24,888 nucleotides of DNA, taken from the IMG/VR virus record IMGVR_UViG_3300017759_000068, positions 1 to 24,888 of that record; one strand, 5' to 3'. Within the stretch, counting starts at the first letter, position 1. Each line of letters starts with the position of its first letter. Positions 1,109-24,822 of this stretch are shown in pieces. The position numbers were made by a program, and so were the translations under genes. Under the pieces are notes generated by a model, which was given only the letters and a program-made list of their open reading frames with translations, ran no database searches and was not told the origin of the DNA. This DNA is from a virus.

Positions 1109-4100
1109 TTACTGTACACGTAACGTACCTTGTTCATTTTCTGGCGGTGTTTCATTGAAAATTAATTGATTTGGATTCACTGCAAATACTTGTATAATTG
1201 GATCATAATTTAATTGTGGATATGTTGATGCAATATTAATAGCAGGTGCGGTAATTTTTGTTCCAGCAAACCGCTGATTTTCTATATTTTCAAATATATC
1301 ATCTCTATAAGAAGATGCCGCAGAGGACCGGCTGTAATGTTGGTTGAGAGATCGACTTGCAAATGATTTATAAAAAAATGTTTCAGTATTATATATATCA
1401 CTTTCACGTGAGTTCAATATAAAACCTTCATTAACTGATCCAGATGTAAACTTTATAGTATCTGGAACTTGAATTTGCATTTTAAAACTATTACCGGCAA
1501 TTCCATAATTGCGGTATACGGCTGGCTTTTCATACCTATGATATACAGTATCCATAGAAATGGCATTAGCTGCCATTGATAGCGAAACTTCATAATTAGT
1601 ATATTCCATGCTAGCCGAAGGAATTATACTATTAATAGTTACATTATAAACCGGTTTTGTAAACGATGGTTGTTTTGTAATATGGCTTTTATTACGTTCT
1701 AACGCGTTTGGCTCGACTAATAATCCCATTACTTCATCTACACGTTCTGGTAATAATTGTTTTATTTGGTTAAATAACGCGAAATCAAATTGACTAAATA
1801 TACGTATATATGCGTTTATATCATTGCGGTCTGAATATTTTTTCCAATATTTATTTGCAAAAGATTCTAAATCTGGATATACGGATTCAAATTCATCGTT
1901 AGGATCACCGACATAATCATCTAATTCGACATCACCAATATGGTTAAATATTTCTTTGTTAATTTGATCAGCCATTGAATAGAACAGACCGACTCGATTA
2001 GTATCAATTGGTGCCCGGTCAAATCGTGACCGTTCTGCGGATGCATTTGGCGATAAACGCCCTACCAATTCATTATCTTCTAAACGTATTTTCTGCGACC
2101 TTGGTAGATTGCTACCTAAAGATACACCTTGTATATAATATGTTTCTTCGATTGGTACAAAATTTCCACGTGATGAATTAATAGGGGTATTAAATCCAGA
2201 TGCTGATGCATATGTATTATTTTTATCATTATATGGTGGAGAAAAATCTTTAATTGATTGATTTGGGTGACTCGATGTTATCCGAAAATCATTGCTTGAT
2301 AAATCAAATGTATTTAAATCTGTACCTAATGGATAATGTCGTATCAATGTATCATATGCACCACTAGGGTTTAATGCTGACACATACGACGTTGGATTTG
2401 TTGTATGTATATCAAATGTAGATTGGTTAATTACTTCTAACCAACCACGATATTCCTGCATAGAGCCGGTAAATGATCCGGTAATTAACTCACCAGATAT
2501 AGTTTCATTATTCGTTACTGGTCCATTTCCTTTAATCGCAAATGATGCAGATAATGCAGCCCTAACATCATACTCACTTAATACGGCAGCTATCGGGCCA
2601 CCTAATCTTAATACATGTGAATTATTATTATCATCTGGACTTGACCAATATAATGAATGACTTGCAAATGTCGGTGTTAGTTGTGTAGTTGTTTTATGTA
2701 CAATTTTGTCTGAAATATAATCAGATGCCTGTTGGCAGCGTAATGTGTATGTAGTATTTGTATTAGGAGTATTGTTAACAGTATCAACACCGATACTCAA
2801 GTTCCAAAAATTCCCATCAAATAAAGGTACATAATCAGTTACTGATGCAGATGCCATACTCTCGCCGCCGGCAATAGCAAAATGTAGTCTACCATATTTA
2901 TCACTTCCGGAATATGATGCTGTATGCTGAAGAACGATTGCCCATGATAATGTATCATCATTATCACGACTTGACATAATATGCATATGTTGTTTAAGAT
3001 CTGGCTTAAACCTAACTTCATGAGTTAAAATTGGAATTTCTCCTCTTTCAATCCCCCATGTACCGATACTACTTGATACCCAGTTATTTGGTATCTTTAA
3101 ATGAGCATCTTCATCAAATTGTAATGCATATGTGAATCGGTCTTCAATTATTGTCGGAACATCGCCAGAAACGTTAGGACCACCATATTCTCGTATAGAA
3201 AGTAAAGTCTGCGGAATACCAAATGTATTCATGAGCGCTTTTACAGATCTAACAGTCCCTTTAGTCTTTAATAGATACGGTAAATTATTAACTATACGCT
3301 GCCATACTTCTGCAGTAATCGCTTCATCAGATTTTGAAAATAATGTACCAGTAGATTGCAAAGCTCCGGAACCAGAATCAACGCCTAATTTATATTGCCA
3401 TAATGCGGAAGCTTGTTTACCATTGGTTAATGACCACCCCATTGACTTCGCAATTTGATATAATGTGTCTTTACTTTGGCCTAATTTAGGATGTTCTTGG
3501 GGATGATATACTTTTGATAAATTATCTATATGTGAATAAATAATATCATAATGGTGTGCAATCATATTAACAAATAATTCATATTGCGAGTTATTTGAAT
3601 CTAAACGTATATGTTCTGGTATTGTTTTTATTAATGCAGTTTCATTCTCGTTATCATATAACGATGCCGTTGCATATGTACCATTATACCAATTTTCAGC
3701 AAAGGGACTGGTACTAAGATGTAAACTAAATTTACCATCTGAGATATATTTTGGCCATGGCTGTATGCGGTAAGGCTGTGATCCAATCCTACCACCTTCT
3801 ATCTCATAATCGTTAATTGTATATATATGTTGGTCTGTAAATAAGCTTGCTGTATTTTCATTATATAACCAACGTTCAAATCCATCAAATGATCCAATAA
3901 TATTATCTTTCTTACGTCTGTTTACTGTAATATTACCTTGTAATGCAGTGGAATCAGATCCGGACGCATTATCCAATGTCTCAATTCTAGAATTATAATA
4001 TTCGATTAATTCTATTTTATATTTAAAATTGGCAATACGCTCTGCCGCGGACGAAAAATTTATAAAATTATTAAATCCAGAGTAATCAACATCGAATGCA

Positions 4101-4825
4101 GGTAATGCTGATCCAGAAAACATGTTGTCAATTATTGTCTGTGATGTTGATAAATTAGTATCTAATAACGAATTCCAAGATTCAAAGTCAGTCTCAGTTA
4201 CTGTTCCATAAGTCGTTTCTACATCAAAATTTGCAGCACGTAATTCCACTGTATTATCAACGGTTGTAATTTTTGGTACTAATGAAATAACATCTTCGAA
4301 TGAATCTGATAATTCATTTATTATCCAAGCAGTTGATTCCTCACGAATATCATTTGGTAATGGATCTGATAAACGTATTACAAGGTCTCCATCAAACATT
4401 GCTTGGTTAACAATTTTAAATAAACGATTTGATCCAAAATTTAATAAAGGAGACATTCCGGAACTATTATTAACAAATGATTGCAACATTCCTGCATGTG
4501 CTGCTGGATTATCAACTGCGACATGTTCAAACCGTAATTCGTATCGATCAGGTGAAATTTCGTTTAAAAATATCATTGGAAAATCTGACGATCCTAACAA
4601 ATTATCGTAAACATTTATCACAGCGTTAAATGTACCACGTTGTATATTGTATAAATCTAATACCGCAGCATGGTCGATTAATACTTTATCAACATCAATT
4701 TCAAAATCCTTTATTACACCACCTACTATATATTTAGGAGATTGTCCTTGTGTAAAGTAATGTGATTCAATAATCGCATTTTTTAAAATCTGTGATTGTA
4801 TATTATTTATCGTATTCTTTCCCAT
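1109..4825 (-). CDS. Large baseplate/tail structural protein with LamG-like domain
   Basis: A 1238-residue protein, the largest in the window, at the end of the run gp25-gp6-X-Y. The first ~440 residues show mixed alpha/beta character. Around 505-552 is a helical block ending in YLLKTKGT, RSVKALMNTFGIP and IREYGG, resembling the tail-protein-I type segment of tail assembly proteins. Residues about 560-790 look like a ConA/LamG-type beta-sandwich with repeated strand patterns (LSWAIVLQHTAS, LHFAIAGG, LRLGGPIA). A second conserved helical stretch (QIKQLLPERVDEVMGLLVEP) lies near 1015-1035. Position after gp6 would suit a T4 gp7-like wedge role, but no clear gp7 signature is visible. It overlaps the upstream gene by 19 bases, implying translational coupling. 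A glycan-binding role for the LamG-like part is inference. Confidence 0.75.
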   Translation of the reverse strand: MGKNTINNIQSQILKNAIIESHYFTQGQSPKYIVGGVIKDFEIDVDKVLIDHAAVLDLYNIQRGTFNAVINVYDNLLGSSDFPMIFLNEISPDRYELRFEHVAVDNPAAHAGMLQSFVNNSSGMSPLLNFGSNRLFKIVNQAMFDGDLVIRLSDPLPNDIREESTAWIINELSDSFEDVISLVPKITTVDNTVELRAANFDVETTYGTVTETDFESWNSLLDTNLSTSQTIIDNMFSGSALPAFDVDYSGFNNFINFSSAAERIANFKYKIELIEYYNSRIETLDNASGSDSTALQGNITVNRRKKDNIIGSFDGFERWLYNENTASLFTDQHIYTINDYEIEGGRIGSQPYRIQPWPKYISDGKFSLHLSTSPFAENWYNGTYATASLYDNENETALIKTIPEHIRLDSNNSQYELFVNMIAHHYDIIYSHIDNLSKVYHPQEHPKLGQSKDTLYQIAKSMGWSLTNGKQASALWQYKLGVDSGSGALQSTGTLFSKSDEAITAEVWQRIVNNLPYLLKTKGTVRSVKALMNTFGIPQTLLSIREYGGPNVSGDVPTIIEDRFTYALQFDEDAHLKIPNNWVSSSIGTWGIERGEIPILTHEVRFKPDLKQHMHIMSSRDNDDTLSWAIVLQHTASYSGSDKYGRLHFAIAGGESMASASVTDYVPLFDGNFWNLSIGVDTVNNTPNTNTTYTLRCQQASDYISDKIVHKTTTQLTPTFASHSLYWSSPDDNNNSHVLRLGGPIAAVLSEYDVRAALSASFAIKGNGPVTNNETISGELITGSFTGSMQEYRGWLEVINQSTFDIHTTNPTSYVSALNPSGAYDTLIRHYPLGTDLNTFDLSSNDFRITSSHPNQSIKDFSPPYNDKNNTYASASGFNTPINSSRGNFVPIEETYYIQGVSLGSNLPRSQKIRLEDNELVGRLSPNASAERSRFDRAPIDTNRVGLFYSMADQINKEIFNHIGDVELDDYVGDPNDEFESVYPDLESFANKYWKKYSDRNDINAYIRIFSQFDFALFNQIKQLLPERVDEVMGLLVEPNALERNKSHITKQPSFTKPVYNVTINSIIPSASMEYTNYEVSLSMAANAISMDTVYHRYEKPAVYRNYGIAGNSFKMQIQVPDTIKFTSGSVNEGFILNSRESDIYNTETFFYKSFASRSLNQHYSRSSAASSYRDDIFENIENQRFAGTKITAPAINIASTYPQLNYDPIIQVFAVNPNQLIFNETPPENEQGTLRVQ

Positions 4826-18797: not shown

Positions 18798-19211
18798 TTA
18801 CTTGATTGTAACTGTTTTAGGCTTTGCCTCTTCTGTTAAAGGTGCAAATAAATGAAGTAATCCATTTTGTAATTTAGCTTCTAGTTTTGATAAATCAAAA
18901 CGGCGGCTAATTCTCCATCCAAAATTGAATGCACGTTTTGCAATATTTCTTTGAATGTATTCAGCTGATTCTTGAGTACGATCTTTTTTATACTCAACTC
19001 TTAAGATATCTCCTTCAATAGTTAACTCAATATCTTTTTTAGTTAAACCGACACATGCAATGTCAATATTAAGACCGTTATCGGCTTCGTAAATATCTAC
19101 TGGATGGTTGACTCTGATTTGGTTAAACGGAGCATATTCTTCCTCCGCTTTGAAAAAATCCTTGAAAAGGATGTCGAATGGCGATGTGCCAAATGGTGTT
19201 AAATTTCCCAT
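18798..19211 (-). CDS. hsp20: Small heat-shock protein, Hsp20 family
   Basis: A 137-residue alpha-crystallin-type chaperone. The variable N-terminus (to about 30) is followed by VNHPVDIYEADNGLNIDIAC, GLTKKDIELTIEGDILRVEY (about 55-75), then IAKRAFNFGWRISRRFDLSK and LQNGLLHLFAPL, the typical end of the crystallin domain, with a short KTVTIK tail. Hsp20 homologues are frequent in T4-like aquatic phages, where they are proposed to help fold virion proteins or protect host machinery. An AAGGAG ribosome site lies about 8 bases before the ATG. The gene is bracketed by 17-base inverted repeats and has a promoter-like TATATTTATA at 19292-19299. It has its own intergenic leader of 89 bases. Confidence 0.93.
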   Translation of the reverse strand: MGNLTPFGTSPFDILFKDFFKAEEEYAPFNQIRVNHPVDIYEADNGLNIDIACVGLTKKDIELTIEGDILRVEYKKDRTQESAEYIQRNIAKRAFNFGWRISRRFDLSKLEAKLQNGLLHLFAPLTEEAKPKTVTIK

Positions 19212-24412: not shown

Positions 24413-24655
24413 TTAAAATGGTATCATTGTTAAACCTATTAAATTAAATAAGTACTCTAGTATTGTGAATATAACAGCTCCACCAACTATCTGATAAGCC
24501 CAATACTTCCAGCCAGTTAAGCTTTGCTCAAACCTTTTAACTCTAGAATTCATAGCCTTATCTCTAAGACCAGACTTCACAAAGATCTTCTCAGCCCAGT
24601 AACCTGGATCGAATAAATCTTTAAACTTCTTTAGTAATAATAAAAACTTTTTCAT
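24413..24655 (-). CDS. Small membrane protein
   Basis: An 80-residue protein with a basic, amphipathic N-terminus (MKKFLLLLKKFKDLFDPGYW), a polar loop and one membrane helix near the C-terminus (YQIVGGAVIFTILEYLFNLI, about 54-73) ending in GLTMIPF. It is the first gene after the tRNA and is followed, after one base, by the exported protein; together they look like a cell-envelope pair. Similar short proteins ending in a hydrophobic helix and P-[WF] are familiar from phages, without known function. Confidence 0.65.
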   Translation of the reverse strand: MKKFLLLLKKFKDLFDPGYWAEKIFVKSGLRDKAMNSRVKRFEQSLTGWKYWAYQIVGGAVIFTILEYLFNLIGLTMIPF

Positions 24656-24668
24656 ATACTCTTTTTTG

Positions 24669-24815
24669 CTGTAGGAGAAGGATTCGAACCTCCACGTAGT
24701 AGTTAGCTTTAAGACAATGTTGCAACTTGGTGGTCAACCCCGTTTATCCTAAGTTTATCCTATACTCTACACCCCCGAGACAGGAGGGCATGTCTGCCAA
24801 TTTCATCACCCTACA
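24669..24815 (-). tRNA. tRNA with abnormally long variable region, GUC anticodon position
   Basis: Minus strand. A 7-pair acceptor stem TGTAGGG/TCCTACA (24815-24809 with 24676-24670), D-arm ATG-loop-CAT with conserved TTGG and AGA, anticodon stem CCCTC/GGGGG around loop CTGTCTC (24783-24777), and T-arm GGAGG-TTCGAAT-CCTTC (24693-24677) are all present. The anticodon by position is GTC (Asp), but the D-arm is of the Leu type. Between anticodon arm and T-arm lie 78 bases (24694-24771), far beyond a type II variable arm, including a tandem 11-base duplication (24742-24762). No CCA is encoded. It may be inactive, intron-bearing or a novel tRNA form. Confidence 0.65.
24742..24762 (+). repeat. Tandem 11-base duplication in tRNA variable region
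   Basis: GTTTATCCTAA (24742-24752) is followed directly by GTTTATCCTA (24753-24762). It lies inside the oversized variable region of the tRNA and suggests slippage expansion. Confidence 0.7.
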
Positions 24816-24822
24816 TTATTAA

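Follow-up and report, generated by a model that had tools for sequence, protein, structure and literature searches.

The locus and the tRNA-like element

The window analysed here, the whole 24,888-nucleotide stretch of the viral record IMGVR_UViG_3300017759_000068, carries on its minus strand (24815-24669) a complete cloverleaf of 147 nt, running from U1 (24815) to G73 (24669) and located in the intergenic space between two genes. The initial annotation had described a tRNA core in which acceptor, D, anticodon and T arms all pair while 78 bases separate the anticodon arm from the T arm. The pairing was borne out to the base: each of the 35 pairs in the consensus described below for the family forms in the window, and the 78-base stretch corresponds to the variable region. 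The combination of a Leu-like D arm with the Asp anticodon GUC had also been read accurately, and it is the signature of the whole family. ARAGORN and Rfam 15 (gathering score) made no call at the element, and Rfam at a permissive threshold returned chance matches only. The features, all on the minus strand, are the following.

24668..24816, minus: whole element, base -1 to C74; matched with 154 bits by R1, a covariance model that has the window among its training sequences; alignment A2
24669-24815, minus: mature body, U1 to G73
24809..24815, minus: 5' strand of the acceptor stem, UGUAGGG, starting U1-G2; 7/7 pairs in 213/214 members
24790..24806, minus: D arm of the tRNA-Leu type, AUG AAAUUGGCAGA CAU, stem AUG/CAU; from pair counts, and R1 also matches tRNA-Leu genes
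24772..24788, minus: anticodon arm, stem CCCUC/GGGGG, which covaries
24777-24783, minus: anticodon loop CUGUCUC, with GUC at 24779-24781; from loop counts
24694..24771, minus: 78-nt variable region forming a structured variable arm, by covariation
24767..24770, minus: 5' strand of variable-arm helix P1, GUAG, pairing with 24696-24699; covariation at 69-178 and 70-177 of A2
24760..24762, minus: 5' strand of helix P1b, UAG, pairing with 24700-24702; double changes at 3/3 pairs
24745..24753, minus: 5' strand of helix P2, pairing with 24707-24716; double changes at 6/8 pairs
24730..24740, minus: conserved GG(G/A)UUGACCAC; nearly all A2 columns invariant
24719..24726, minus: self-complementary octamer GUUGCAAC at the tip; a palindrome of at least 6 bases occurs in 43/51 distinct phage tips
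24677..24693, minus: T arm GGAGG-UUCGAAU-CCUUC; alignment A2 and pair counts
24670..24676, minus: 3' strand of the acceptor stem, UCCUACA; from pair counts
24668..24669, minus: G73 and C74, then non-CCA sequence; GC in 214/214 members, following bases unconstrained
24413..24655, minus: downstream gene of 80 aa (phrog_31764, function not assigned), starting 13 bases past the element and outside it

The tandem 11-base duplication that had been noted in the insert (AGGATAAACTT/AGGATAAACGG) is present in the window and absent from the relatives in the alignment. Because the relatives are without it and its copies fall on different parts of the arm, copy 1 spanning helix P1b and the AUAAA motif and copy 2 forming the 5' strand of helix P2, the repeat is, judged from the alignment, a local coincidence. 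Elsewhere in the window, the closest relatives of the baseplate protein belong to Flavobacterium phages and to a phage labelled as infecting Microcystis, and an Hsp20-type heat-shock gene (18798-19211, minus strand) lies near DNA ligase and endonuclease genes.

A family in phages and Bacteroidota

A blastn search yielded a 71% match, confined to the element, inside a tRNA cluster of the 636-kb phage LR756504. When IMG/VR was scanned for patterns with four different keys, over 100 phage loci were recovered, and one pattern scan of bacterial genomes added at least about 100 more elements, of which the true ones were all labelled Bacteroidota (among the matches listed: Pedobacter, Chitinophaga, Saprospiraceae, Aquirufa, Flammeovirga, Spirosoma and Sporocytophaga). 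After trimming, 214 elements from phage contigs and Bacteroidota chromosomes were left. All seven acceptor pairs form in 213 of them, the G73-C74 end is present in all 214 and the U1-G2 start in 212; the search patterns demanded neither acceptor pairing nor these ends, while the trimming filtered for at least five acceptor pairs. The motif GG(G/A)UUGACCAC belonged to some of the search keys and was also recovered in matches of a pattern without it, three of which contain UAGACCAC. No homologue without the large arm was found, the initial annotation having proposed to look for the insert in related phages, and R1 also detects shorter members, mostly of 110-126 nt, which keep the arm with a smaller tip: their P2 is a plain hairpin without GG(G/A)UUGACCAC.

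When R1 was run as a control on 204 kb of chance pattern matches, one short tRNA-sized match was the only one obtained, and by this control loci L025, L028-L030, L074 and L086 and the non-Bacteroidota pattern matches were set aside as chance. Blastn with other members matched no further named phages or plasmids, and Flavobacterium phage immuto, Microcystis phage Mel-JY01, Tenacibaculum phage pT24 and Rhodothermus phage RM378 gave no family-level match. The literature that we searched contains no earlier description of the family; coverage was incomplete and one may exist elsewhere, so that we provisionally regard the family as previously undescribed.

Covariation and the structure of the variable arm

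Folding energies of single sequences do not reveal the element (z = -0.10 for the window and -1.09 for the member at L038), and the structural case therefore rests on covariation. In an unsupervised analysis of 55 diverse members, pairs from all four cloverleaf stems (acceptor, D, anticodon, T) and from three variable-arm helices ranked at the top. Over the 35 pairs of these 55 members, 98.2% of the paired cells are complementary, as compared with 78.3% in shuffles; pairs changed on both sides amount to 28/35 (18.6 in shuffles), and cells with double changes to 386 (86.5 in shuffles). Covariation exceeded all 500 shuffles by every measure, and slid controls were only about 50% paired. The cloverleaf features under selection comprise a 7-bp acceptor stem, the D arm, an anticodon arm of 5 bp with a 7-nt loop and a T arm of 5 bp with UUCGANU.

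The variable arm consists of P1 (4 bp; columns 68-71 with 176-179 of A2), P1b (3 bp), an internal loop AUAAA/CUAA and P2. The internal loop adjoins a base pair (column 87 with 168) that alternates between C-G and G-C, and in most members GG(G/A)UUGACCAC sits above P2. With 72-95 nt in the 55 aligned members, the variable region lies outside the usual tRNA range (~4-24 nt), and the whole element reaches up to 197 nt. A contact between the D loop and the anticodon loop (AGAC with GUCU) was considered and dropped, as L036, L043 and L072 have AAAC with the same loop. No complement of GUUGACCAC or UUGACCAC was found in host 16S/23S rRNA.

These data are best explained if the element represents an independent RNA gene within a conserved family, probably derived from a class II (Leu-type) tRNA. 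Of the three options raised at the outset, the one supported is a new kind of tRNA or a regulatory RNA. From the window alone, a degenerate tRNA or an intron-interrupted tRNA gene would be conceivable, and ARAGORN misses the element. Yet compensatory changes preserve every arm across the family, the extra stretch itself covaries as a variable arm down to its basal helix P1, and neither an uninterrupted homologue nor a match to an intron family was found. Degeneration is therefore rejected and an intron finds no support, which leaves this explanation very improbable.

Identity elements for charging and decoding

The strong determinants of bacterial AspRS are G73, G34, U35, C36 and C38 (PMC9976931), and all five are present in 213/214 members. 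C38 is found in 213/214 and the GUC anticodon in 214/214, an invariance that is partly built in since GUC was contained in several search patterns and in the R1 training set; the only pattern that left GUC free gave matches that were all GUCU. By contrast with these determinants, the rest of the anticodon loop departs from the U33 and purine 37 of tRNAs. Base 33 is C in 22/214 members, with U33 still in ~90%, and base 37 is U in all 214; wider covariance-model matches add A33, G33 and C37 and keep GUC in all but one, so that base 37 is always a pyrimidine. The ordinary tRNA-Asp of the same genomes has the loop CUGUCAC with A37, and it coexists with the element in five host genomes and at 12 phage loci. 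As the AspRS set is conserved while positions 33 and 37 deviate, the determinants for charging seem to be kept and those for decoding relaxed.

Outside the anticodon loop, the tRNA-Asp features G1-C72 and G10 are lacking: U1-A72 occurs in 54/55 rows, and base 10 is A, G or U, mostly A. The tRNA-Leu scaffold (class II, Leu-type D arm) is present without A73 or a Leu anticodon, G73 being found in 214/214 together with GUC. With respect to tRNA-Ser, G73 and the large variable arm are shared, and C72 and C11-G24 are replaced by A72 and mostly U11-A24. In ordinary tRNA genes from these phages and hosts, C74 is encoded and the remainder of CCA mostly is not, and the invariant G73-C74 of the family matches these neighbours, which fits tRNA-type trimming and CCA addition.

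Gene context and distribution

Of 99 chromosomal copies, 74 are followed within 80 nt by a terminator-like site (30.4 in shuffles), and 28/100 are preceded by TAnnTTTG, the -7 element of Bacteroidota (2.85 in shuffles), suggesting that the chromosomal copies are independent genes, a point that we count in favour of the best explanation. A divergent Lrp/AsnC gene is located within 600 bp upstream of 63/103 chromosomal copies and recurs across Pedobacter, Chitinophaga and Cytophagales; this adjacency (e.g. L128, L120, L138) possibly reflects a regulatory link or merely an old neighbourhood. No Lrp/AsnC-type regulator was seen beside the phage copies. A tRNA gene lies within 1.5 kb at 56/111 phage loci, on the same strand as the element for 218/218 such tRNAs, and no recurrent protein family was detected alongside the phage copies. 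In LR756504 (L001), the adjacent 88-nt genes at 3718-3898, called tRNA-Thr(tgt) and tRNA-Asn(gtt), are long for their isotypes.

Presence was scored with R1 at E <= 1e-14 and the larger sets were filtered more strictly, so that the following counts are lower bounds. The family occurs in 31/296 evenly sampled Bacteroidota genomes, in 35/41 genomes of the Pedobacter order (as a rule with two copies side by side), in 25/39 of the Aquirufa order, in 13/41 of the Chitinophaga order and rarely in other parts of the phylum, with 7/40 in the order to which a Flavobacteriaceae bin belongs and 1/41 in that of a Bacteroidales bin. That a tRNA-like gene carried by most members of some bacterial orders went unseen is due to the fact that ARAGORN makes no call and a model is lacking in Rfam 15. 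In a tree, the phage members form a group nearly separate from the chromosomal ones (4 changes for 81 + 81 rows, 54 in shuffles), and the phage lineage therefore does not consist of repeated recent captures. Four to six copies in tandem were observed in Flammeovirga (L155/L242), in Sporocytophaga (L215) and in the whole genomes G334 and G399, some of the copies having scattered changes at conserved bases, such as GGGCUGACCAC in L242.

Possible functions

The reading that we favour, tentatively and with a little less than even confidence, is that of an RNA that is matured as a tRNA, is probably charged with aspartate and works outside ordinary decoding through its arm. Following tRNA rules, the transcript would be trimmed at both ends like a tRNA and completed with CCA. 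AspRS would then charge it, which we propose because the five strong Asp determinants are kept whereas the other positions of the anticodon loop are not. Ordinary decoding of GAC/GAU would, with less certainty, not be its use, given that base 33 drifts, base 37 is U or C and an ordinary tRNA-Asp coexists. The large arm (P1, P1b, internal loop, P2 and often a cap formed by the GGGUUGACCAC domain) may serve as docking site for a dedicated partner that senses whether the RNA is charged or employs its aspartate away from normal elongation; this partner stays hypothetical since no protein family was seen to accompany the phage copies. By bringing their own copy in tRNA arrays, phages would sustain the function during infection. 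U1-A72, the lack of G10, U33 in ~90% of the members and the partly built-in invariance of GUC count against this reading.

If the RNA were instead an ordinary elongator tRNA-Asp (or a Ser- or Gln-charged tRNA) with an oversized variable arm, reading Asp codons, the phage copies would represent one more array tRNA. Their same-strand position in such arrays, the U33 and GUC of most members and the retention of all strong Asp determinants are in accordance with this. However, the pyrimidine 37 throughout, the non-U33 bases of several lineages, the redundancy created by ordinary tRNA-Asp and the conserved motifs of the arm, which decoding does not need, make it rather improbable. An uncharged structural or regulatory RNA, with the tRNA shape used only for processing, stability or protein binding, would account for U1-A72, which differs from tRNA-Asp, for the own terminator and for the divergent Lrp/AsnC gene of the 63 chromosomal copies; it could act as a decoy of an aminoacyl-tRNA synthetase or a tRNA-cleaving nuclease, or as an Lrp/AsnC-linked regulator. 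The strictness of the G73-C74 end and the exact set of AspRS determinants point to charging, though, the regulator was not seen beside the phage copies, and conservation over entire bacterial orders would hardly be required of a decoy, so that we consider this explanation unlikely, if far from negligible.

Whichever the basic role, the phage RNA might in addition form a homodimer through kissing of self-complementary tips. An exposed six-base loop palindrome recalls kissing-loop dimers, e.g. of retroviral RNA, and the palindromes of at least 6 bases in the phage tips (10.1 expected for the 43 found) are of ~20 different kinds, including GCGCGC, GUGCAC, GCUAGC, GUUGCAAC and GCUUGCAAGC; some chromosomal copies also show hairpin loops with a central palindrome. 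On the other hand, chromosomal tips are barely enriched (18/50 as compared with 11.9), palindromes of 8-12 nt may be simple hairpins, and the phage rows are related. From sequence, a homodimer in phages is plausible, but we hold it as somewhat doubtful.

Returning to the Asp-charged, non-decoding RNA, it might constitute a separate class of tRNA: charged with aspartate, not employed for decoding on the ribosome, a core gene in several Bacteroidota orders, resupplied by phages, with a built-in docking arm and dimerising in phages, and thus a family of its own and no side job of an ordinary tRNA. This composite proposal is possible and, taken as a whole, rather doubtful. If the RNA is charged and does not decode, the question arises of what else Bacteroidota and their phages use an aminoacyl-tRNA for. 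The family is a new item in phage tRNA arrays, outside the explanations based on codon supply and defence evasion, and the covariance model eases the study of its distribution as well as experiments.

Comparison with known RNAs

Bacterial class II tRNA-Leu resembles the family in its cloverleaf, in its D arm and in the bases that flank the variable stem (one on the 5' side, two on the 3' side), and tRNA-Leu genes score ~40-60 bits with R1. However, the family has G73 and not A73, a GUC anticodon and a variable region of 72-95 nt where 10-24 are usual. With tRNA-Asp(GUC) it shares G73, G34-U35-C36, C38 and G2-C71, whereas it differs by its class II architecture, U1-A72, the lack of G10, U/C37 instead of A37 and a variable base 33. 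Like the family, tmRNA (RF00023) is tRNA-ended, has a large insert and is phage-carried, and locus L099 contains both a tmRNA and a member; in contrast to tmRNA, the family keeps the D stem and anticodon arm, has its insert in the variable region and shows no conserved reading frame, the frame through the window copy being broken in L001. The RF00023 model does not match the family. The specialised tRNA-Sec and allo-tRNAs (reviewed in PMC7609411) also have unusual shapes and long variable arms; their anticodons are UCA or others used in recoding and their acceptor/T lengths are altered, whereas the family has 7 + 5 bp and GUC. GOLLD, ROOL and OLE, natural RNA oligomers with kissing contacts (PMC12286853), are comparable in that the palindromic tips make self-association plausible for the family too, although they have no sequence or structural relation to it and its dimerisation is only inferred.

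Two further tRNA-like genes were noted. The phage at L010 (IMGVR_UViG_3300037804_000222), which also has a family member, carries a second, Leu-like gene (40254-40392, minus strand) in which a stem GAAUU/AAUUC closes a ~35-nt loop at the position of the anticodon loop, possibly an intron-bearing tRNA. Cellulophaga phage phiST (NC_020842; locus L308) contains at 4184-4349, on the minus strand, an unannotated tRNA-like stretch of 166 nt with a perfect 7-bp acceptor stem, a T arm and a large AT-rich insert, which R1 matches weakly (31.7 bits).
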